A stretch of DNA of 64,000 bases, taken from Saprospiraceae bacterium (GTDB taxonomy: Bacteria; Bacteroidota; Bacteroidia; Chitinophagales; Saprospiraceae). The notes under the pieces are model-generated. The model worked only from the letters and a program-made list of their open reading frames with translations. It was not told the DNA's origin and did not search any database. This document shows positions 6,339-56,573 of the stretch, one piece after another; within the stretch, counting starts at the first letter, position 1; each line of letters begins with the position of its first letter. The position numbers were made by a program, and so were the translations under genes. The stretch lies in NCBI GenBank assembly GCA_021738725.1, contig JAIPBE010000009.1, forward strand, positions 1-64,000, read 5' to 3'.

Positions 6339-6662
6339 TCTTCCTCCTTGTGCTTATCTCTGCCTTTTCTTACACCTTTCTGCCTCTTTCTTCCTATTAT
6401 TTCGCGAAATTTCGCCAATCAATGAATACTAAGAGAGAGCCGACATGCGTTTACATTCCATGTGAATCTGCCATGAAAGCATGGTAAATTCCGGGTGAAC
6501 TCTGTCTTTAGTCCGTGTTTAGTCCAGGTTAAAGCCGTAGTTATCCCTCTTTCCCTGAGGATCTTCATCGCTCAGGATCTCCATTACAGACATCAGGATC
6601 AGATCAGAAATTGGCAAGTTGGACGTCGTCCTCTTGCCAGATCGTTCATGAAATGTTGACTC
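6339..6662. other. Gap before the small HTH gene
   Basis: About 320 bases with no credible gene. It separates the minus-strand cassette from the divergent HTH-like gene and may hold promoters for both. No TAnnTTTG box next to either start was seen. Confidence 0.4.
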
Positions 6663-23639: not shown

Positions 23640-24880
23640 AAAGTCTCAAAGTCCCTCCGTCCTCCCCGTTCTACATTCTACGTTCTACAATTCTCCAGCT
23701 CTTCATTCTATGGTCCTCCGTCTTCCCTGCTCGCCGGAGGCGAGGGTCCTCCGTCCCACGGCCCCCTTTCTATATCCTACATTCTACATTCTACCTTCTA
23801 CAATTCTCCAGTTCTACGTTTCTCCAGTTCTACGTTCAGCAGTCCTCGGTCCTCCCCGTTCTACATTCTACATTCTACGTTCTACGTTCTACAATTCTCC
23901 AGTTCTTCATTCTACGGTCCTCCGTCCTCCCCGTTCTACATTCTACATTCTACATTCTACAATTCTCCAGTTCTACGTTTCTCCAGTTCTACGTTCAACA
24001 GTCCTCCGTCGCTCGTTCCTCCTCGTTCTACGTTCTACCTTCTACATTCTACGTTCTACAATTCTCCAGCTCTTCATTCTATGGTCCTCCGTCCTCCCCG
24101 TTCTACATTCTACATTCTACGTTCTACGTTCTACAATTCTACAATTCTCCAGTTCTTCATTCTACGGTCCTCCGTCCTCCCCGTTCTACCTTCTACCTTC
24201 TACAATTCTCCAGTTCTCCAGTTCTCCAGTTCTACATTCTACGGTCCTCCGTCCTCCCCGTTCTACATTCTACCTTCTCCAGTTCTACGTTTCTCCAGTT
24301 CTTCATTCTATGGTCCTCCGTCTTCCCTGCTCGCCGGAGGCGAGGGTCTACGGTCCGTCCTCCCCGTTCTACATTCTACCTTCTACATTCTACATTCTAC
24401 GTTCTACAATTCTCCAGTTCTTCATTCTACGGTCCTCCGTCCTCCCCGTTCTACAGTTCTACAGTTCTCCAGTTCTACATTCTACGGTCCCTCCGTCCTC
24501 CCCGTTCTACATTCTACGTTCTACGTTCAGCAGTCCTCCGTCCCACGACCCCTTTCTACATTCTACGTTCTACAATTCTACAATTCTCCAGTTCTACGTT
24601 TCTACGTTCAACAGTCCTCCGTCGCTCGATCCTCCTCGTTCTACCTTCTACCTTCTACGTTCTACAATTCTACAATTCTCCAGTTCTTCATTCTACGGTC
24701 CTCCGTCCTCCCCGTTCTACATTCTACGTTCTACGTTCTACAATTCTCCAGTTCTACAGTTCTCCAGTTCTACAGTTCTCCAGTTCTACATTCTACGGTC
24801 CTCCGTCCTCCCCGTTCTACATTCTACAATTCTACAATTCTCCAGTTCTACAATTCTACAATTTTCCAGTTTCTCAAAAC
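23640..24880. repeat. 1.25-kb TTCTAC micro-repeat array
   Basis: The plus strand is built almost only from words such as TTCTACATTCTACGTTCTAC, AATTCTCCAGTTC, TTCATTCTACGGTCCTCCG and TCCTCCCCG. Larger units recur: a 48-base block with CTCGCCGGAGGCGAG is identical at 23701-23748 and 24301-24348, and the string CAGTCCTCCGTCGCTCG recurs at about 23998 and 24614, giving a higher-order spacing near 600 bases. No TAA, TAG or TGA arises on the plus strand, so all three frames stay open for more than 400 codons. On the minus strand TAG is frequent. It lies between the porU2 start and the end of the next OMP gene. Confidence 0.95.
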
Positions 24881-26934: not shown

Positions 26935-28169
26935 TTTCTAAATAAGATCAATAGCACAGGATCAGCCCCCCGGCCCTCATCCCTCGGGCAAACCGACAAC
27001 GGATAACTGACAGGGGAAATCCCAAATGACAAATCCCAAATCCCAAACCCGCCTCTCGGCGGCCAGGCAAGAACCAAATCCCAAAAACGAATGTCCGAAA
27101 CGGGTGAGTCGGCTACTTTGTCTTACCCTCCTTTCGCTAATTATTCCATCCCCGAACCAAGTTGAACGAATATCACGTTCGACCTTGAACCCAGACGATC
27201 CCGCCCCAGTGGGATGTCTGGATCCAGACTTTTCACTGAAGGTGAAACGTCTGGGCGGCTAAGCGTTGTATTCTGAGGTCAAACCAACAACTGACAACTC
27301 CTGCCTGCCGGCAGGGATAACTGACAACAGTCCCCCGAATGCGAATTGAAAAAAATAAACCGTTCATGCCGGTGTCTCACCGGCATCCCGGAGGCTGGTC
27401 ACTCTTGTACGGATTGACTGGTAATGATACTATCGTCGGTGTCGCACCGACAACCGGATCTGGATCGAAGACCTTGCGCCTTAGCTTCTTTGCGAATCAT
27501 TCGTCCAGCTTCGGCTGGCAAACGCTTCACCTTCTTTTCGAAATAACCCAATCACTCAATCACGAAATAACATCATCCGCCTTCAAGAAACCGACAAGCG
27601 ACAGGGGAAATACCAAAACACAAGTACCAAATCCCAAATAAACCTCAAATCTCAAATGCCAATGACCAAAACAGTTAGCGAATGTTTAGATCAAACGAAT
27701 TTGCCATTACCCATTACCCCTTACCCATTACCCATTACCCAATACCGAACCAGGAATCCGGAATCCCTCTCCAAACTGACAAGCGACAGGGGAAATACCA
27801 AAACACAAGTACCAAATCCCAAATAAACCTCAAATCTCAAATGCCAATGACCAAACAGGTAGCGAATGTTTAGATCAAACGAATTTGCCATTACCCATTA
27901 CCCAATACCCAATACCCATTACCCAATACCGAATCTGGAATCCGGAATCCCCCTCCAAACCGACAACCGACAGGGGAAATACCAAAACACAAGTACCAAA
28001 TCCCAAATAAACCTCAAATCTTAAATGCCAATGACCAAAACAGTTAGCGAATGTTTAGATCAAACGAATTTGCCATTACCCATTACCCAATACCCAATAC
28101 CGAACCAGGAATCCCTCTCCAAACTGACAACCGACAACGGACAACTGACAACTGACAACTGAGAACCGA
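26935..28169. repeat. Gap with micro-repeats, a double-hairpin element and three 185-bp tandem copies
   Basis: 1.2 kb without a gene. 27000-27090 and later hold words such as AAATCCCAAATGACAAATCC and CAACTGACAACTGACAAC. A double-hairpin element lies at 27188-27259. From about 27585 to 28130 a unit of about 165-185 bases occurs three times (27589-27774, 27775-27957, 27958-28125), each reading GACAGGGGAAATACC, CAAATAAACCTCAAATC, CAGTTAGCGAATGTTTAG, CAAACGAATTTGCC, a variable run of CATTACCC/CAATACC words, then AGGAATCC. CCGGTGTCTCACCGG (27368-27382) is a hairpin. Confidence 0.85.
27188..27259 (+). repeat. CCAGAC/GTCTGG double-hairpin element, copy 1
   Basis: Two adjacent hairpins that meet at GTCTGGATCCAGAC. 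The first is CCAGAC-G-ATCCC / GGGAT-GTCTGG, the second is CCAGAC-TTTTCAC / GTGAAA-C-GTCTGG. Other copies are at 30577-30636, 32228-32286 and 56325-56396. Confidence 0.8.
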
Positions 28170-30636: not shown

Positions 30637-32227
30637 AACACCGAACGCCTTCCTCCTCGACGCCTCTACTCTTCGACTTTCGAAATAACCCAATAACGAA
30701 ATCACGCCTTAACGTAAAATGGCCCCGTAGGGGTCAAACGATTATAGCAGGCCAGGTCAGGAAATGAAGGCGGCCCCGTCGGGGTCGAACTGCAACCGCC
30801 AAACGCCTTCCCTCAATATCACATCTAATTGAATAGCCAAGCCAGAGGAATCCTTATCTACGGAATAAAAGTTTCAACCCCACCGGGCGCTTAGTATGGA
30901 TTCGAATCCGAACGGCATTGGATTTTCGAAATAACTCAATAACCCAATAACGAAATCACACCTTAACGTAAAATGGCCCCGTAGGGGTCAAACGATTATA
31001 GCAGACCAGGTCTGGAAATGAAGGCGGCCCCGTCGGGGTCGAACTGCAACCGCCAAACGCCTTCCCTTAATATCACATCTAATTGAATACCCAAGCCAGA
31101 GGAATCCTTATCTACGGAATAAAAGTTTCAACCCCCCGGGCGCTTAGCATGGATTCAAATCCGAACGGCATTGCATTTTCGCAATAACGCAATAGCGAAA
31201 TAGCTCCATAACGCCATAACCCCACTCATAACCTCCTTGCCCCACCTTTCCGAATACCGAATACCGAACACCGAACACCGCCTCCATAACTCCATAATTC
31301 CATAACGAAATAACCTCCTTGCCAGGCCATCCGAGCGCCGAATACCGAATACCGGACACCGCCTCCATAACTCCATAACTCCATAACTCCATAACGAAAT
31401 AGCCTCCTTGCCCGGCCCTCCGATCACCGAACACCGAATACCGAACGCCTCCACCTCATGGCCCCGCAGGGGTCAAACGATTATAGCAGGCCAGGTCAGG
31501 AAATGAAGGCGGCCCCGTCGGGGTCGAACTGCAACCGCCAAACGCCTTCCCTCAATATCACATCTAATTGAATACCCAAGCCAGAGGAATCCTTATCTAC
31601 GGAATAAAAGTTTCAACCCCACCGGGCGCTTAGCCTGGATTCGAATCCGAACGGCATTGCATTTTCGCAATAACGCAATAACGAAATAGCTCCATAACGC
31701 CATAACCCCACTCATAACCTCCTTGCCCCACCTTTCCGAATACCGAATACCGAACACCGAACACCGCCTCCAAACGCCTTCCCTCAAAATCTCATCTAAT
31801 TGAATATCCAACAGCGGCTTCCTGTTTGAGATTAGCAGTATCACCCCTACGGGGCTCCTGATTCTTCGCCAACAAATTTGCTATAAACGTTGCACCCCTA
31901 CAGGGCGCTTGGCATGGATTCGAATCCGAACGGCATTGCATTTTCGAAATAACGCAATAACGAAATAGCTCCATAACGCCATAACCCCACTCATAACCTC
32001 CTTGCCCCACCTTTCCGAATACCGAATACCGAACACCGAACACCGCCTCCAAACGCCTTCCCTCAATATCACATCTAATTGAATACCCAAGCCAGAGGAA
32101 TCCTTATCTACGGAATAAAAGTTTCAACTCCACCGGGCGCTTAGCATGGATTCGAATCCGACCGGCATTGCATTTTCGAAATATCGCAATAACTCAATAA
32201 CGAAATAACCTCCTTACCCTGCCCCCC

Positions 32228-34753: not shown

Positions 34754-36211
34754 GTATCCCATCTCTACCCTTCCAGCCTGGAAGGACACCACTACCAGAT
34801 CTGCGAGTTTGCATCTGGTCGTTTCACCCCTTCTCAAAGTCTCACAGTCCCACTGTCTGACGGTCTAATCCAACTTACCATTTTCTTATTTCTCATTCCG
34901 GCGGTGGGCAGGTATACCTCATTTCTGATTTCACCCACCACTGCGGGCAGGGGCATCTGTTCTTCTTTTCAAGGACAAATTCTCTTCTTCTTAATGCCTT
35001 GAATGTTAACTATGGTCAACCGATTGAGGGTTCTTCAACCCCTTCAGGGTTGTACTGAGCAGGACATTGAACCCCGGGTTGCACCCGGGGCTATTCTATT
35101 GAACCCTTCCAGGGTTCTTCGCTAATGATTTTGGATCTTCCATTATTCTCACGATCCGTTGTAAATGGCCTTCCGTTTCGCCAACAGTGTTCTTGGCATC
35201 TGGCAAAGGGTTAATGGTTATCCCTGATTCCTGCGATCCTGGTTTCTCCCTCCTGTGGTGGGCAGGCATTTTTATTCCCTCCATCTGGCCCACAGTCTCA
35301 AAGTCTCACAGTCCTTTCCGACTTCCGACTTCCGCTTTCCCACTTCCGCCTTCATTCCTCATCCAATCTCAGAGTCCCAAAGTCTCAAAGTCTCACAGTC
35401 TCAAAGTCCCACTTTCTCATTCCTGCGTTCCTGGTTTCTCATTCCTGATTCCCTTCACCTGTCCCACAGTCTCAAAGTCCCACTTTCTCATTCCTGGTTC
35501 CTGGTTCCTAATTCCCTTAGTCTCTTCGTCACTCCGTCTCTTCGTCAAATTCCTGATTTCTGATTCCCTTCACCTGTCCCACAGTCTCAAAGTCTCACAG
35601 TCCTTTCCGACTTCCGACTTCCGCTTTCCCACTTCCGCCTTCATTCCTCATCCAATCTCAGAGTCCCAAAGTCTCAAAGTCTCACAGTCTCAAAGTCCCA
35701 CTTCCTCATTCCTGCGTTCCTGGTTTCTCATTCTTCATTTCCCATTCCTTATTCCTGATTCATTTCCCACCGTCTCGAAGTCTCTCCTCAACTCCTCCAC
35801 TCCTTCACTCCTGGTCCTCCGTCTTCGATTCCAGTAGAAACTTATTGCGCCCCTTCAGGGCTCTGATGTCTGGTTTATCCTTTTCGTTGGGCCCTGCCCA
35901 ACGCTGAGGTATTCCGCCCCTTCAGGGCTTGCTGCCTGGTATCTGGTCGAACCACAGGTTCCTCCCGTAACGACGGGCAAGCATTCCTGATTCCTGCGTT
36001 CCTGGTTCCTGATTCCCTTCACCAGTCCCAAAGTCTCACTGTCTCAAAGTCCCACAGTCCCAAAGACCCTCCTCTCAAAACCTCATAACCTCCCAACTCA
36101 CAACCTCACTTTGGCACTTCTCTTGCAACTTGAAAAGTGAATCCCGGTTATACTTTCCAGGAAGAATCCTCGTTTCATGCAATGTGTCCCGCTTGTTTCA
36201 ACAGGACAAGC
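34754..36211. repeat. 1.4-kb gap with CTCAAAGTC / TTCCTGATTCC micro-repeats
   Basis: No gene. Palindromic words AACCCTTCCAGGGTT, CCCCTTCAGGG and CCCGGGTTGCACCCGGG occur (35030-35115, 35850-35930). A block of about 120 bases starting CACAGTCTCAAAGTCTCACA and running through ACTTCCGACTTCCGC to AAAGTCCCAC is present twice nearly identically (35289-35410 and 35579-35700). Around it lie runs of CTCATTCCTG, GGTTCCTGATTCCC and CACCTGTCCCACAG. Reverse complements of the same words form the gap at 55.5-56.2 kb. It splits coaBC from porD, which normally sit closer. Confidence 0.85.
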
Positions 36212-36219
36212 TAGATTTG
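36212..36219 (+). promoter_or_regulatory. Bacteroidota promoter of porD
   Basis: TAGATTTG with a TTG at 36193-36195, sixteen bases upstream, matching the -33/-7 spacing of the phylum. It suggests porD has its own transcript after being separated from coaBC by repeats. Confidence 0.55.
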
Positions 36220-36260
36220 CACAATCTGCCGGATACCGGCAATGGTTAATGTCTGCTAAG

Positions 36261-37166
36261 ATGAAGCATGTATTGCGCACCCTCTTTTTTCTGATGATCG
36301 CCCTGTCTTCCCTCTCCGCTCAAGAGCTGAAGGTGGATATCATCGTGAATACCCCCCGTCTCCAGAGCGTCGATCCGCAAGTCTTTCAAACCTTGCGCAC
36401 GGCCATCCAGGAGTTTATGAACAACCAGCCGTTCACCGAAGATGTCTTCGAGATCGATGAACGGATCGAGGTGACCATCCAGTTGACCATCAAGGATGAG
36501 TACAGCCTCAACTCCTTTGGTGCCGACATGTCCATCCAGGCAGTTCGCCCGGTCTATGGCAGCAACTACAAATCCTCCATCCTGATGCACGTGGACAAGG
36601 ATGTGACCTTTACATACGATCAGTATCAGCCTATCGTCTTCAGTCGCAATGCGTTTGTGGATAATCTGTCCTCCATCCTGTCATTCTATGCCTATTACAT
36701 TCTGGGACTGGACTATGATACCTATTCAAAAATGGGTGGGGAACCCTATTTCCAGGCGGCACAGGAGATCATCAATATGATCCCTTCCTCGGTGACGAAC
36801 GGCAATAAAGGCTGGAAGCCAACCGATGGCACCCGCAACCGCTACTGGATGGTGGAGAATGCACTCAACCCCACCTTCAAAGCCATGCGCGAAGCATCCT
36901 ATACCTATCACCTCAAAGGATTGGATGAAATGCACCGCGACCCGAACAAGGGGAAGATCAACATGTTGAAAGCGATCGACGCCATCGCCACCATCGCCAA
37001 GATCAACCGCAACAGCATGGCCATTCAGCTGTTTGCCAATGCCAAGAATCAGGAAGTAGTCGAGGTCTTTAAGGAAGCAGATATGGACATGAAACGCCAG
37101 ATAAAGGACCTCATGGGTCTGATCGACCCGGCCAACGCATCCCGCTACAACCAGATCGGGCTGTAA
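36261..37166 (+). CDS. porD: T9SS protein PorD (DUF4835)
   Basis: 301 residues from MKHVLRTL; an ATG at 36249 adds four residues. Signal peptide to about residue 20 (LMIALSSLSAQ), then the DUF4835 pattern: V.VNTPRLQSVDPQVFQTL, EFMNNQPFTEDVF (about 55-67), YYILGLDYDTYSKMGGEPYF (about 150-170), RYWMVENALNP (about 205-215). It is a periplasmic or outer-membrane-associated factor needed for T9SS assembly or function in studied relatives. It follows bamD-rpoZ-coaBC in the usual order but across a repeat-filled gap. Confidence 0.92.
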   Translation: MKHVLRTLFFLMIALSSLSAQELKVDIIVNTPRLQSVDPQVFQTLRTAIQEFMNNQPFTEDVFEIDERIEVTIQLTIKDEYSLNSFGADMSIQAVRPVYGSNYKSSILMHVDKDVTFTYDQYQPIVFSRNAFVDNLSSILSFYAYYILGLDYDTYSKMGGEPYFQAAQEIINMIPSSVTNGNKGWKPTDGTRNRYWMVENALNPTFKAMREASYTYHLKGLDEMHRDPNKGKINMLKAIDAIATIAKINRNSMAIQLFANAKNQEVVEVFKEADMDMKRQIKDLMGLIDPANASRYNQIGL

Positions 37167-37658
37167 ACCACATGTCCCCCGCTGGCGGGGGTGGATGTTG
37201 ACCTGGCCGAAGGCCATGTCAACAGACGGGGGTGGAAAAACGTGCTTCCAAACCCAGGGAACAGCTAAATCTGCCTAAGGTCAAGAAACCGGATCAGCTC
37301 CGTGGATAGATCAAAAAATGCTTTTCCGTAATTCTTTCCCGAATGGGTGAATCATGTCCCCCGCTGGCGGGGGTGGATGTTAGCCTGGCCGAAGGCCGGG
37401 CAAACAGACGGGGGTGGAAGAACGTGCTTCCAAACCCAGGGATTAGCAACACCTGCCTAAGGTCAAGAAACCGGATCAGCTCCGTGGATAGATCAAAAAA
37501 TGCTTTTCCGTAATTCTTTCCCGAATGGGTGAATCATGTCCCCCCGCTGGCGGGAGTGGATGTTAGCCTGGCCGAAGGCCGGGCAAACAGACGGGGGTGG
37601 AAGAACGTGCTTCCAAACCCAGGGATCAGCAACACCTGCCTAATGTTCAGAAACCGAA
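37167..37658. repeat. Tandem 182/183-bp repeats carrying copies of the 3' end of the HD gene
   Basis: Two full units and a third that runs into the HD gene. Each unit has a hairpin-rich part (CCCCCGCTGGCGGGGG, GCCTGGCCGAAGGC, CAGACGGGGGTGG), a spacer, and a 60-base segment at 37294-37353 and 37476-37535. Read on the minus strand, the 60 bases encode the same 19 residues plus TGA as the last codons of the HD gene (37659-37718). The spacing is 182 and 183 bases. Confidence 0.95.
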
Positions 37659-38861
37659 TCAGCTCCGCGGATAGATCAGAAAGTGTTTTTCGGTGATCCT
37701 CTCCCGGATCGGTGAATCCGTTTCATCCGAATACCGGATCAGTTTCCCCGATTTCTTCAGGATCAGGATCTCGTCATTTCCCTCCAGGTACGCTTTGGAT
37801 TCCTCCTTTCCGGTGATGATGAATGACTCCCATTCCGGGGTAAGACCACCAAATTTTGTTTCCGCAGCCGCCCGTACCTCCTGGATAAATTCTTCTGAAG
37901 GAGGCAGTCGATCCAGGTAAACTTTGAACAGTTTTCGGTCCAACAAGGCATTGGCCAGAAACTGGAGGAGGAAATCGGGAGAATGCCGCATCTCCTTCAA
38001 CTCGTGGACGATGTCCGTATCATCCAGCCGCACAAATTCATGGAGAATGGAACTGACCGGCAGACTTCGATCTGTGGGGAAGTCCAGGATGGCTTTCAAG
38101 GTGCGAGAGGTGACCACCCGACTCCCTTCCCGATGTAAACGCGCCAGGCGCTCCAGCACCAGGATCAGCATCTGTTCGGCAGCCAGGACTGTTTTGTGGA
38201 GATACACTTGCCAGTACATCAGTCGTCGGGCGATCAGAAACTTTTCGATCGAATAGACCCCTTTCTCCTCGACGACCAGCTGGCCGTCGACTACGGAGAG
38301 CATTTTCACGATCCGATCATACCCGATGACCCCTTCATGGACCCCGGTGAAAAAACTGTCGCGATTGAGGTAATCCATTCGATCCATATCCAGTTGGCCG
38401 GAGACCAACTGATGGAGGAAAGGCTTTGTATAGGTATCAGCAAAGATGGACAGGGCGAGATCGAGACGACCCTGGAATTGCTCATTCAGCTCGGCCATAA
38501 TGGCCTGTGACAACTCCTCATGGTGATAGGGGAGGAGGGTGTGTTCCAGCACATGACTGAAGGGGCCGTGACCGATATCATGCAACAGGATGGCGATCTG
38601 CACGGCCTCCGCCTCTTCCGCAGTGATCTCCACATCTTTGCTGCGAAGGACATCGATGGTAGATTGCATCAGGTGCAGGGAGCCCAGCGCATGCTGGAAT
38701 CGCGTATGCAAGGCGCCCGGATACACGAAATCGGTCATACCCAATTGCCGGATCCGACGAAGGCGTTGGAACCATGGGTGTTCGACCAGATCCATGATGA
38801 TCCCACGGGGAATGGTAACAAATCCGTAGACCGGATCGTTGAAAATTTTGTGTGCGGCCAT
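37659..38861 (-). CDS. HD-domain phosphohydrolase (dNTPase/SAMHD1-like)
   Basis: 400 residues from MAAHKIFND; the longer frame upstream lies across a TACCTTTG box and is not expected. Signatures of the SAMHD1/YdhJ-type HD family: DPVYGFVTIP (about 8-17), HPWFQRLRRIRQLGM, HTRFQHALGSLHLM with the first metal His, LLHDIGHGPFSHVLEH with HD (about 92-107), and QLDMDRMDYLNRDSFFTGV with the last metal Asp (about 158-176). It probably removes phosphates from nucleotides or (d)NTPs; the substrate is not fixed by sequence. Two extra copies of its last 19 codons lie downstream. Confidence 0.9.
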   Translation of the reverse strand: MAAHKIFNDPVYGFVTIPRGIIMDLVEHPWFQRLRRIRQLGMTDFVYPGALHTRFQHALGSLHLMQSTIDVLRSKDVEITAEEAEAVQIAILLHDIGHGPFSHVLEHTLLPYHHEELSQAIMAELNEQFQGRLDLALSIFADTYTKPFLHQLVSGQLDMDRMDYLNRDSFFTGVHEGVIGYDRIVKMLSVVDGQLVVEEKGVYSIEKFLIARRLMYWQVYLHKTVLAAEQMLILVLERLARLHREGSRVVTSRTLKAILDFPTDRSLPVSSILHEFVRLDDTDIVHELKEMRHSPDFLLQFLANALLDRKLFKVYLDRLPPSEEFIQEVRAAAETKFGGLTPEWESFIITGKEESKAYLEGNDEILILKKSGKLIRYSDETDSPIRERITEKHFLIYPRS

Positions 38862-38897
38862 AGTGGCGTACGAAAACGGGTTTTGCGCTCGTTCATG

Positions 38898-38905
38898 CAA
38901 AGGTA
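38898..38905 (-). promoter_or_regulatory. Bacteroidota -7 box of the HD gene
   Basis: TACCTTTG on the minus strand, 36 bases before the ATG at 38861. Confidence 0.55.
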
Positions 38906-39065
38906 AGGCGAATCGTTTAGCCGCCAGTCTTCCTGAAAAGGAGATCAGTTCGCGAAAATTGACGTACTTAACAACAGGAATCTGAATTACAGATGCGGGC
39001 TGGATCAAGCGGGGATGAACGCACCGGCCTGTTCATCTTTCATTGAACAAGAAGAACACCCACAT

Positions 39066-40619
39066 ATGCCAAAGATCCTCTGGGCTGACGACGAAATCGA
39101 TATCCTCAAGCCCCAGATCCTCTTCCTTCAGGAAAAAGGATATGAAGTAATTACCGTTTCAAACGGATATGATGCCATTGAAGAGTGCAGTTTGCAAAAG
39201 GACCTGGACATCATTTTTCTGGATGAATCCATGCCCGGACTCTCCGGTCTGGAAACCCTCAGTCGGATCAAGGACGCAAATCCCAACATCCCGATCGTGA
39301 TGATCACCAAGAATGAGGCCGAAACGGTGATGGAGGAAGCCATCGGTAGCCGGATATCCGACTACCTGATCAAACCGGTCAATCCGAACCAGATCCTGCT
39401 GACCATCAAGAAACTCACCGAGAACAAGCGCCTGGTCAGCGAGAAGGTCATGACCGGATACCAGCAGGATTTTCGTTCCATTCTCATGGACATCAACATG
39501 GCCGAGAATGTGGAAGAATGGGTGGATATCTACAAGAAGATCATGAACTGGGAAATGAAGATGGATGACTCCCAGAGCCAGGATATGGCAGACATCCTCA
39601 ATACCCAGAAGACGGAGGCGAACAGCGAGTTTTCTCGCTTCGTCGATCGCAATTATCACGATTGGATCGCCAACCCCAAGGCAGCCCCGACCATGTCCTG
39701 GAATCTCATGCGGGAAAAGGTCTTTCCTCGCTTGTCCGACGATCGCCCGACCATCTTTATCCTCCTGGACAATCTCCGCTTTGATCAGTGGAAGATCCTG
39801 GCGCCCATTATCTCAGAACGATTCCGGATCACAGATGAAGAATACTTTTTCAGCATCCTGCCCACCACCACGCAGTACAGCCGGAATGCCATCTTTGGTG
39901 GGATGTTGCCATCAGAGATCGAAAAGCATTATCCGGATTGGTGGCGGAATGATGCCGAGGAAGGAGGTAAAAACCAGTTTGAAAGTGACCTGCTGGGCAA
40001 ACAACTCAAGAAGGCCATTCACAAGCCCTTGAAATGGACCTATCAAAAGGTCACGAACCTCCATGCTGCCCGCCAGTTGCAAGACAGCGCATCCGACTAT
40101 CTGCAGTATGATTTTACCGCCATCGTCTACAATTTTATTGACATGATCTCTCATGCCAGGACAGAGATGGATGTGTTGAAGGAATTGGCCGGCGACGAGA
40201 CGGCTTATCGCTCCCTGACCAGGAGTTGGTTTCTTCACTCTCCCCTTTGGGCAGCCATGCAACGCTGGTCGGAGAAAAAGCCACTGCGCATCGTGGTGAC
40301 CACAGACCACGGTACGATCCGGGTCAAGACCCCGACGAAGGTGGTCGGAGATCGCGATACCACCACCAACCTGCGTTATAAAGTTGGGAAGAACATGCAG
40401 TATGAGCCGAAGGATGTACTGGAGATCCGCGATCCGGACAAGGTTGGATTGCCCCGCCCGAATGTGAGCTCTGCATTCATCTTTGCCAAGGATGATCGGT
40501 TCTTCCTATACCCGAATAACTACACTTATTACTACAATTATTTCAAGAACACCTTCCAGCATGGTGGCATTTCCCTGGAGGAAATGATCTGCCCCTTCAT
40601 TGTTCTGGAGCCGAAATAA
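39066..40619 (+). CDS. porX: T9SS response regulator PorX (receiver plus PglZ)
   Basis: 517 residues. The N-terminal receiver domain has acidic Asp8/Asp9, phospho-acceptor Asp53 in FLDESMPG, Thr81 and Lys103 in LIKPVNP. A helical linker (about 115-200) is followed by a PglZ/alkaline-phosphatase-like domain with LLDNLRFDQW (about 230-239), LPTTTQYSRNAIFGGMLPSE and VTTDHGTIRV (about 410-420), which supply metal ligands. In studied Bacteroidota PorX works with PorY and a sigma factor to control T9SS genes, and its PglZ domain has phosphodiesterase activity. No DNA-binding domain is present. The ATG at 39066 is chosen because the receiver starts there. Confidence 0.95.
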   Translation: MPKILWADDEIDILKPQILFLQEKGYEVITVSNGYDAIEECSLQKDLDIIFLDESMPGLSGLETLSRIKDANPNIPIVMITKNEAETVMEEAIGSRISDYLIKPVNPNQILLTIKKLTENKRLVSEKVMTGYQQDFRSILMDINMAENVEEWVDIYKKIMNWEMKMDDSQSQDMADILNTQKTEANSEFSRFVDRNYHDWIANPKAAPTMSWNLMREKVFPRLSDDRPTIFILLDNLRFDQWKILAPIISERFRITDEEYFFSILPTTTQYSRNAIFGGMLPSEIEKHYPDWWRNDAEEGGKNQFESDLLGKQLKKAIHKPLKWTYQKVTNLHAARQLQDSASDYLQYDFTAIVYNFIDMISHARTEMDVLKELAGDETAYRSLTRSWFLHSPLWAAMQRWSEKKPLRIVVTTDHGTIRVKTPTKVVGDRDTTTNLRYKVGKNMQYEPKDVLEIRDPDKVGLPRPNVSSAFIFAKDDRFFLYPNNYTYYYNYFKNTFQHGGISLEEMICPFIVLEPK

Positions 40620-55009: not shown

Positions 55010-56573
55010 GGGATCTGTTCGAAAAATGGTGCATCAAAATAACGTCCAAAAACACGGAAGAGCATAGATCGGAGGCCGCATTAGGAACTCATTCACATAT
55101 ATAACGAATGAAAAGAGAAAATGGCTGGCTCCTATCGGAATATTTCGACTGAATCACTTGTCTTTCAGGATAAAAGGGCCTCCTTCTTCGATCAGAGGAG
55201 GAGGTGATGAGTCTGGAGGGAGCCGTTCGACTCCTGCAGGGCCGCATTTTTAAATCAAAACTCGCAGGCTATACATATTTGACCCCTACAAGCCCATGTC
55301 AAGTTTTGAGGTTAAGGGGTTATTTCGGTATTGAGTTATTTCGAAAAAACCATGCTGTTCGCATTCAAGTCCACAGAAAAGCACCCTGTAGGGGTGACAC
55401 TACATCGGTCATTCTGGAAGCGTTCATTCCAGTGCCATGCTTTCGGAAGTGGAAGAGGGATGCCTGCCTGCTGATGCGAGAAAAATCAGGAATGAGGAAT
55501 TTGACGAAGAGACGAAGTGACAGAGTGACGAAGGGAAATTGGGACTGTGGGACAGGTGAAGGGAATCAGGAACCAGGAACCAGGAATCAGGAATGAGGAA
55601 TGAGGAATGAGGAATGAGAAATACTCTGCCTCCCCCGGTTTGGCGCACTTAAGATGATCTTCCATGATATCATTCCGTCGCCAAACCACCCCCTCATGAA
55701 ATCCTTTGTCTCCGGTATTGGACGTATTCTGTGAGGGGGACATGCCCGCGTTATAGAGTTTGTGAAATAGAAACTGGTCCATTTCCAGGCTAGAATACAC
55801 ATAGTCACGTTAAACTTTGAACGTCAGAGCGCTAGTTCTGACTTTGAACGTTGAACAGCCCAGCCGAGAATCAATCAACCAGACGATGTGCACCAATGCT
55901 CCACTCAAATCTTAACTTGGAATCAGGAACCAGGAACCAGGAATCAGGAATCAGGAATGAGGAATGAGGAATGAGAAAGTGGGACTTTGAGACTGTGGGA
56001 CAGGTGAAGGGAATCCGGAATGCAGGAATCCGGAATGCAGGAATCAGGAATGCAGGAATCAGGAATGTCTACAAACCGCAGGAGAGAGGAATGAGGAATT
56101 AGGAATGAGAAGTGTGACCTTGAGACTGTGGGACGGGTGAAGGGAATCAGGAACTCCACCTGTGGCGGATATTCAAGTTTGCTTGTTTTCACGGATTACG
56201 GAGTTGGGTGAAGATTGGATGTTCAAGGTTCAAGATGCCTGTTGAAACAGGCATTGGTTCAACGTTTAATGTACATCACGTTAAACCTTGAACTGACGAG
56301 CCGTCAGGCTCGTCCTTAAACGTTGAACCCAGACGATCCCGCTTCAGCGGGATGTCTGGATCCAGACTTTCACAGAAGGTGAAACGTCTGGGCGGCTAAA
56401 TGTTTGACCCCGCCTATGAAACCTGAAGCCAATCAGGAATCAAGCCTGCGGCTTGCAGGCAGGAACGCAGGAATCAGGAATGGTAAATGACTGCCCGTCA
56501 CAGGAAGGAGGAAGTCGGGATTTGAGACGAAGAGACGGCGTGGCTGTGGAAAAGAGATTGACTGCCAAAACCT
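55010..56573. repeat. 1.5-kb gap filled with GGAATCAGGAA micro-repeats
   Basis: No gene; a short frame at 55204-55596 is made of repeat words. 55318-55405 is an inverted, diverged copy of family A from the 30-32 kb region (ACCCTGTAGGGGTG, TGAGTTATTTCGAAAA). 55555-55620 and 55918-56160 are runs of GGAACCAGGAATCAGGAATGAGG. GTGGGACTTTGAGACTGTGG followed by GACAGGTGAAGGGAATC at 55979-56015 is the reverse complement of words at 35.4-35.6 kb. TTGAACGTTGAAC words lie at 55810-55860 and 56220-56330. A double-hairpin element is at 56325-56396. Confidence 0.85.
56325..56396 (+). repeat. Double-hairpin element, copy 4
   Basis: CCAGAC-G-ATCCCGC / GCGGGAT-GTCTGG, then CCAGAC-TTTCAC / GTGAAA-C-GTCTGG. Same subtype as copy 1 at 27188. 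Confidence 0.8.

Follow-up and report, generated by a model that had tools for sequence, protein, structure and literature searches.

The intergenic array described here is probably a scar without function, which would have formed when DNA exchange with a diverged lineage was combined with duplication of a gene end, and which a later unequal exchange would have enlarged. It lies in the window, the whole stretch of 64,000 nucleotides that was analysed, where three units of 182-183 nt stand head to tail (37171-37718) between the convergent genes of an HD-domain phosphohydrolase (HD) and of the type IX secretion protein PorD. Read along the HD strand, each unit runs from a 60-nt coding tail through a spacer into a REP-like palindromic element. 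The gene-proximal unit, X-a (37536-37718, minus strand), contains the last 19 codons and the stop codon of the HD gene itself (37659-37718, minus), a sequence designated type X. The middle unit (37353-37535, minus) and the distal unit, Y-b (37171-37353, minus), which adjoins the PorD end, carry stranded tail copies of a second type, Y (37476-37535 and 37294-37353, both minus), that are identical in sequence. Pattern matches place the palindromic element at 37536-37602 in the gene-proximal unit, at 37353-37419 in the middle unit, whose copy has dispersed relatives, and at 37171-37237 in the distal unit; the base G at each border between element and tail can, in our reading, be assigned to either side. 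Neither stranded tail is likely to have a function.

The window belongs to contig C54, one of 109 contigs in a 4.18-Mb draft genome that is probably a metagenome bin. The nearest named matches in a genome collection search are Saprospiraceae and other Bacteroidota; none of the best 80 of 592 relatives exceeds 58% identity, in a search from which very near records were possibly omitted. The HD gene (37659-39008, minus) was taken from the list of open reading frames (ORFs) and is supported by the Pfam domains HD (PF01966) and HD_assoc_2 (PF19276). Its listed start is a TTG codon, and the real start probably lies further in, near the segment MAAHKIF. Matches to it occur in 58 of 60 genomes, its own genome counted. 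PorD, with domain DUF4835 (36177-37166, plus; NCBIfam NF052317, Pfam PF16119), converges with it, and the response regulator PorX (39015-40619, plus; NCBIfam NF052313), its divergent neighbour on the other side, served as a control in the divergence comparisons. A search of Rfam at gathering scores found no known structured RNA in 36900-39100, and a tRNA search found none in the window. Intergenic minisatellites are numerous in the window, several with 7-nt units, and there are also arrays of 184- and 254-nt units (these repeats lie at 23777-24871, 27588-28101, 30684-31194, 31228-31446 and 55562-56067).

On the minus strand, the gene end and both copies translate to DSPIRERITEKHFLIYPRS followed by a stop codon (19 residues and the stop), and sequence comparison confirms what the original prediction had stated, namely that two 60-base segments repeat the last residues and stop of the gene and are identical to each other. 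Copy and gene differ at 10 of 60 nucleotides and every difference is synonymous, again as predicted; nine affect the third base of a codon and one the first base (CTG/TTG), and eight of the ten are transitions. Among random single changes in this stretch, the synonymous fraction is 0.23-0.31, depending on the transition bias, which gives a probability of about 4e-7 to 9e-6 that ten of ten are silent by chance. When ten random changes were simulated per set, 0 of 400,000 sets were entirely silent. The copies also have more A/T at third positions, as had been claimed (8 of their 19 codons end in G or C, against 13 of 19 in the gene), a weak difference with 19 codons.

The direction of these changes was read from a relative of the same genus, G002. 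There one orthologous unit occupies the corresponding place, and it aligns across 183 of 183 positions with 76% identity. At the HD locus of G001 the match is confined to the 60-nt coding tail (80%), and at those of G003 and G004 no unit match was found. On the evidence of this one relative, a single unit is probably the ancestral state. Polarised with G002, six of the ten coding sites are derived in Y, three are derived in X and one is ambiguous, and all are silent; since G002, at a silent distance of 0.39, is the sole outgroup of this polarisation, individual sites may have changed more than once. The chance of six of six silent changes on the Y side is at most about 9e-4. Since the changes on the Y side are all silent, Y would have belonged to a functional HD gene during most of the time that it evolved apart, and the view that the copied tail evolved under protein-level selection in a diverged working gene, which the original prediction drew from the silent-only divergence, is thus supported.

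Alternatively, the tails could have been copied from the gene beside them and drifted thereafter as non-coding sequence, so that only luck would account for the silent pattern. Drifting tail copies do occur in this genome, as downstream of a polyprenyl synthetase gene (Pfam; L172, contig C49, 507-1505, minus), where a copy of 57 nt lies 246 nt beyond the stop codon, without the palindrome of the HD array. Gene and copy differ at three sites, and by comparison with the G002 gene the copy holds the derived state at all of them; one of the changes is non-synonymous (Q to H). The copy serves as a contrast, being what a tail under drift looks like. Given that all ten differences in the HD tails are silent (at most about 9e-6 by chance), six of them on the Y side (at most about 9e-4), neutral drift is scarcely credible.

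Two sources of Y then have to be weighed, since the HD gene is the only intact one of its type in the genome (the three HD matches there are the gene and the two tails): Y derives either from a different lineage or from a paralogue since lost. The silent distance between X and Y (10 of 19 codons) is indistinguishable from 0.39 (P 0.16) and from 0.53 (P 0.60). A Y-type HD gene was sought in five genomes of the genus and 150 of the family; none was found, nor anything nearer than G002, and the donor lineage is therefore one that we infer. In the paralogue version, two full HD genes would have stood in tandem and diverged silently, a deletion would have spared the last 20 codons of the second, and unequal exchange would have followed. 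Silent-only divergence and the adjacency of X-a and Y would be explained in this way with no donor lineage at all, and tandem paralogues with conserved ends are known elsewhere in the genome (L118, L131 and L164). However, each of the other four genomes of the genus has exactly one HD match, G002 has one unit at the same place, and more than one HD match was seen among 60 genomes only in G005 (two partial pieces), in G058 and in the genome studied here. The extra gene would have had to persist long enough to diverge and then to be lost only here, and this explanation is accordingly regarded as unlikely, exchange with another lineage being preferred.

The order of the last events can be read from the middle unit, which is a recombinant: its tail and first spacer bases are of type Y and the remainder is of type a. 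Over alignment columns 1-75 it agrees with the distal unit, Y-b, at 14 of 14 informative sites, and over columns 84-154 with X-a at 11 of 11, a division so clean that its probability under random site order is 2e-7. The switch from type Y to type a falls within eight identical bases, TTAGGCAG (37453-37460, minus; columns 76-83). Two places depart from this pattern, column 164 and the G-run near column 178, where the middle unit agrees with the distal unit and with G002, and the X unit alone deviates; later changes in X, or a conversion tract of ~70-90 nt in the middle unit in place of a crossover, are equally possible readings. At column 92 the middle unit has a state that it shares with no other unit. 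Within the tandem array, the internal unit thus combines its two neighbours in the expected register, a conversion tract being the alternative. An unequal exchange that converted the pair X-a, Y-b into the series X-a, Y/a, Y-b explains both why the tails are identical and why the elements differ. The combination of a Y tail with an X-type hairpin in the middle unit also implies that multiplication came after the two types were adjacent; the original prediction was right that the tail was tandemly multiplied together with a hairpin, and is corrected here as to the timing.

Artefacts of assembly have to be considered at this point, since the genome is a draft of 109 contigs and the reads of two co-occurring strains or species might have been joined via the common palindrome. 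The units contain identical runs of 92 and 71 bases, across which a careless assembly could alter the number of units. However, the type switch in the middle unit spans only 8 identical bases, and about 10-15 identical bases separate the X-specific positions in the gene-proximal element from the Y tail that follows, both probably shorter than the usual word lengths of assemblers. The genes on both sides are, moreover, similarly distant from G002. A chimera is for these reasons quite improbable.

The density of differences between the X unit and the distal one also changes along their length. They differ at 18 of 93 columns up to column 93 and at 7 of 90 after it (Fisher P 0.03), and six of these seven later differences fall in the two arms of the central palindrome; past column 93 and outside the hairpin arms, 1 of 72 columns differs (P 0.0002). 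In these comparisons the cut at column 93 and the limits of the arms were set by hand after the sites had been seen, and column 164 and the G-run, where X alone is changed, were excluded. Between X and Y, 4 of the 15 spacer columns that follow the stop codon (61-75) differ. The denser differences before column 94 fit an exchange with a crossover shortly past the stop codon. A sharp change of divergence or ancestry is thus present in the array, both in the mosaic middle unit and, with a cut chosen post hoc, between 18/93 and 7/90. Mosaic genes that arise by homologous recombination between species have a jump of silent-site divergence at the breakpoint. The HD array is like them in this jump and differs in keeping both versions side by side, one of them as a tail only.

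Which side of the breakpoint moved was assessed from silent divergence at codons for identical residues. Compared with G002, this amounts to 150/384 for HD (0.39), 112/314 for PorD (0.36) and 186/495 for PorX (0.38), and compared with G001 to 191/360, 146/275 and 248/486, respectively. In windows of 40 codons the values between the genome and G002 scatter widely (HD 0.11-0.56, PorD 0.22-0.53, PorX 0.13-0.57), and no clear step was found in such windows for HD, PorD and PorX among the genome, G001 and G002. Amino-acid identity to G002 is lower for HD (88.5%) than for PorD (95.4%) and PorX (93.2%), whereas HD stands above PorD in the comparison with G001 (HD 86.3%, PorD 83.6%, PorX 94.0%). Because the silent distances of HD, PorD and PorX to G002 are similar, no foreign tract can be named, and neither the body of the HD gene nor either flank appears clearly foreign. 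The original prediction had taken the gene body to be the newcomer; with such similar divergence both this direction and its reverse are possible. It had also proposed that a diverged homologue replaced the body and left the old tail behind. That recombination juxtaposed two versions of the gene end is upheld by the mosaic and by the polarised silent changes. Plain replacement is insufficient, since it would leave one tail and does not by itself explain the array; with tail and hairpin both still complete at the gene itself, the gene end must have been duplicated before the exchange or along with it.

The proposed history begins in a related lineage, where Y would have evolved at the 3′ end of a complete HD gene. 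Exchange of DNA between lineages, together with duplication of the gene end, would have brought X-a and Y-b into tandem, the join of the duplication presumably lying at the palindrome's outer edge, with an overlap of one base. This may have been a single event, in which incoming DNA recombined at one end and joined illegitimately at the other, or two, in which the tail was duplicated in one lineage and a homologous exchange followed, with its crossover shortly past the stop codon. Later, sister copies would have misaligned and undergone unequal exchange within the eight identical bases, so that two units became three and the Y tail was copied. Homologues of ComEC and DprA are present in the genome, and DNA uptake by this organism is possible.

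Integrative elements offer another route to a silently altered gene end. Phage-like elements that insert at the 3′ ends of protein genes restore these genes with silent changes, as e14 does in icd, so that silent-only replacement of a gene end is typical of them and resembles the differences in the HD array. The Y tail would then be the attP copy of the gene end. Unlike such systems, the array has no element between the copies, and the homology between X and Y runs through the entire intergenic part of 123 nt, palindrome included; searches for Phage_integrase gave 0 matches on contig C54 and eight elsewhere in the genome. An attachment-site scar is on this evidence highly improbable, and lineage exchange with gene-end duplication remains the preferred reading.

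The palindromic elements form a family of their own. Elements with similar ends and different middle palindromes are dispersed in the genome (C105:26163, C7:15271, C87:12169 and C14:about 6567-6609) and in G002 (on C99, C177, C243 and C23, four places read, the orthologous one included), a dispersal that qualifies them as REP-like. By eye, the family is one of low copy number with near-constant ends, a central palindrome that varies freely and arms that co-vary. A stricter pattern of the element, searched in 13 genomes, gave four matches in the genome itself, three in G002 and none in the other 11. With the middle unit as query, 11 of 150 family genomes matched at E 0.01, including the genome itself and G001, mostly through the outermost 20-25 bases. 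The tetranucleotide CGTC stands directly beside the central palindrome in seven of the nine element loci read (the C87 element has TGTC, the C14 element neither). The central stems look longer than 8-9 bp by eye, and the folds of the three array copies vary with strand and copy. Folded as single-stranded DNA, the middle spacer and element reach a z-score of -2.1, and 6 of 200 shuffled sequences fold as well; this segment is structured, not strikingly so. REPs of the RAYT-associated (GTAG) class flank a gene for a Y1-type transposase. Two matches to the Y1-type, HuH transposase Y1_Tnp exist in the genome (C4:218-562 and C14:31682-31906); the core of the element is absent from C4 (5,539 bases), and the element on C14 lies ~25 kb from the transposase (16.5 of 37.7 kb of C14 read).

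Since the tail starts exactly at the outer edge of the element, the palindrome itself might have mobilised the tail, a single-stranded intermediate from its edge bringing the HD tail of another species beside the resident one. If the idea were true, such elements could carry short gene ends between species. Homology over the full unit and a junction of one base are explained equally well by ordinary recombination, and mobilisation by the palindrome is considered very unlikely.

How common stranded tails are was approached by scanning downstream of other genes of the genome, in 113 stretches (2,073,411 of 4,181,937 bases) with 1509 mechanical ORFs of at least 100 aa. The scan needs at least 200 nt downstream of an ORF and covers up to 2000 nt; it is ungapped and may miss short or gapped copies. 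It gave 14 matches, the HD gene among them, and the polyprenyl synthetase tail is the one other true tail copy. Four matches (L118, L131, L164 and L251) were rejected because they are, certainly or probably, neighbouring whole paralogues; L251 is a SelR-domain gene with weak similarity that extends upstream. The subtilase gene L160 ends in ten or eleven codons that look like an intergenic repeat, and the other seven matches are mechanical ORFs of about 100-240 aa within repeated DNA (L163, L165 and L199, which have no Pfam match, L184, L188 and those at 27339 and 55204 of the window). The same kind of tail-plus-hairpin unit, which the original prediction had suggested seeking at other gene ends, was found at no other of the 1509 ORF ends, which represent about half the genome, the polyprenyl synthetase tail being without a hairpin. 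A near-identical scan gave 2 matches among 228 ORFs of G002 and 2 among 1024 ORFs in 109 stretches around the HD genes of other genomes, and in none of these four does a stop codon stand at the aligned stop position. A control scan of 5′ ends gave 8 matches among 1476 ORFs, and a smaller first scan, of 142 records (1.64 Mb) that included relatives, also gave 8. Among the paralogues, L131 (14860-16056) and its copy about 1.5 kb downstream differ in their last 20 codons by four silent changes only and are more diverged in other parts, which looks like gene conversion of their ends. At L164 (270-2432, minus, and beyond), small lipoprotein-like genes stand in tandem, with common start and end segments and variable middles.

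Two described systems come closest to the array. In transformation, incoming DNA that is partly repeated produces tandem duplications and merodiploids in which changed and unchanged copies coexist, and when crossing-over is unequal, a hybrid repeat remains where the copies meet, as described by Johnston et al. (2013, PMC3784515). The HD array is like these duplications in its coexisting versions and hybrid repeat; those described there are bordered by repeats and measure about 100-900 kb, against 0.18 kb for a unit of the array. The second system is that of CGTC-tagged REPs, found also in Bacteroidetes, which are reiterated in tandem with flanking DNA and lie beside convergent gene ends (PMC3733652, 2013). 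That study gives them a stem of 8-9 bp, a loop of 4-5, an unpaired CGTC (or TGTC/CCTC) tag and mostly head-head dimers. The palindrome of the HD array resembles them, so described, in its place near convergent 3′ ends, its tandem repetition with flanking DNA, its dispersed copies and its CGTC (7/9). It is unlike the clusters of that account in its longer stems (by eye), its attached extra GC-rich hairpin and its few copies, and in flanking DNA that holds 20 codons and two allelic types. The locus is absent from the literature reports found among open-licence papers in PubMed Central.

The scar is thus well preserved, the kind of event behind it is already known and no new mechanism is needed. 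Its value lies in the persistence of both versions of one gene end on one chromosome, with a mosaic from which the latest steps can be put in order. The locus suggests that exchange between diverged lineages and repeat expansion have acted on one small intergenic array in an uncultured lineage of the Bacteroidota, and that other scars of this sort can be sought through stranded gene fragments whose divergence is silent only.
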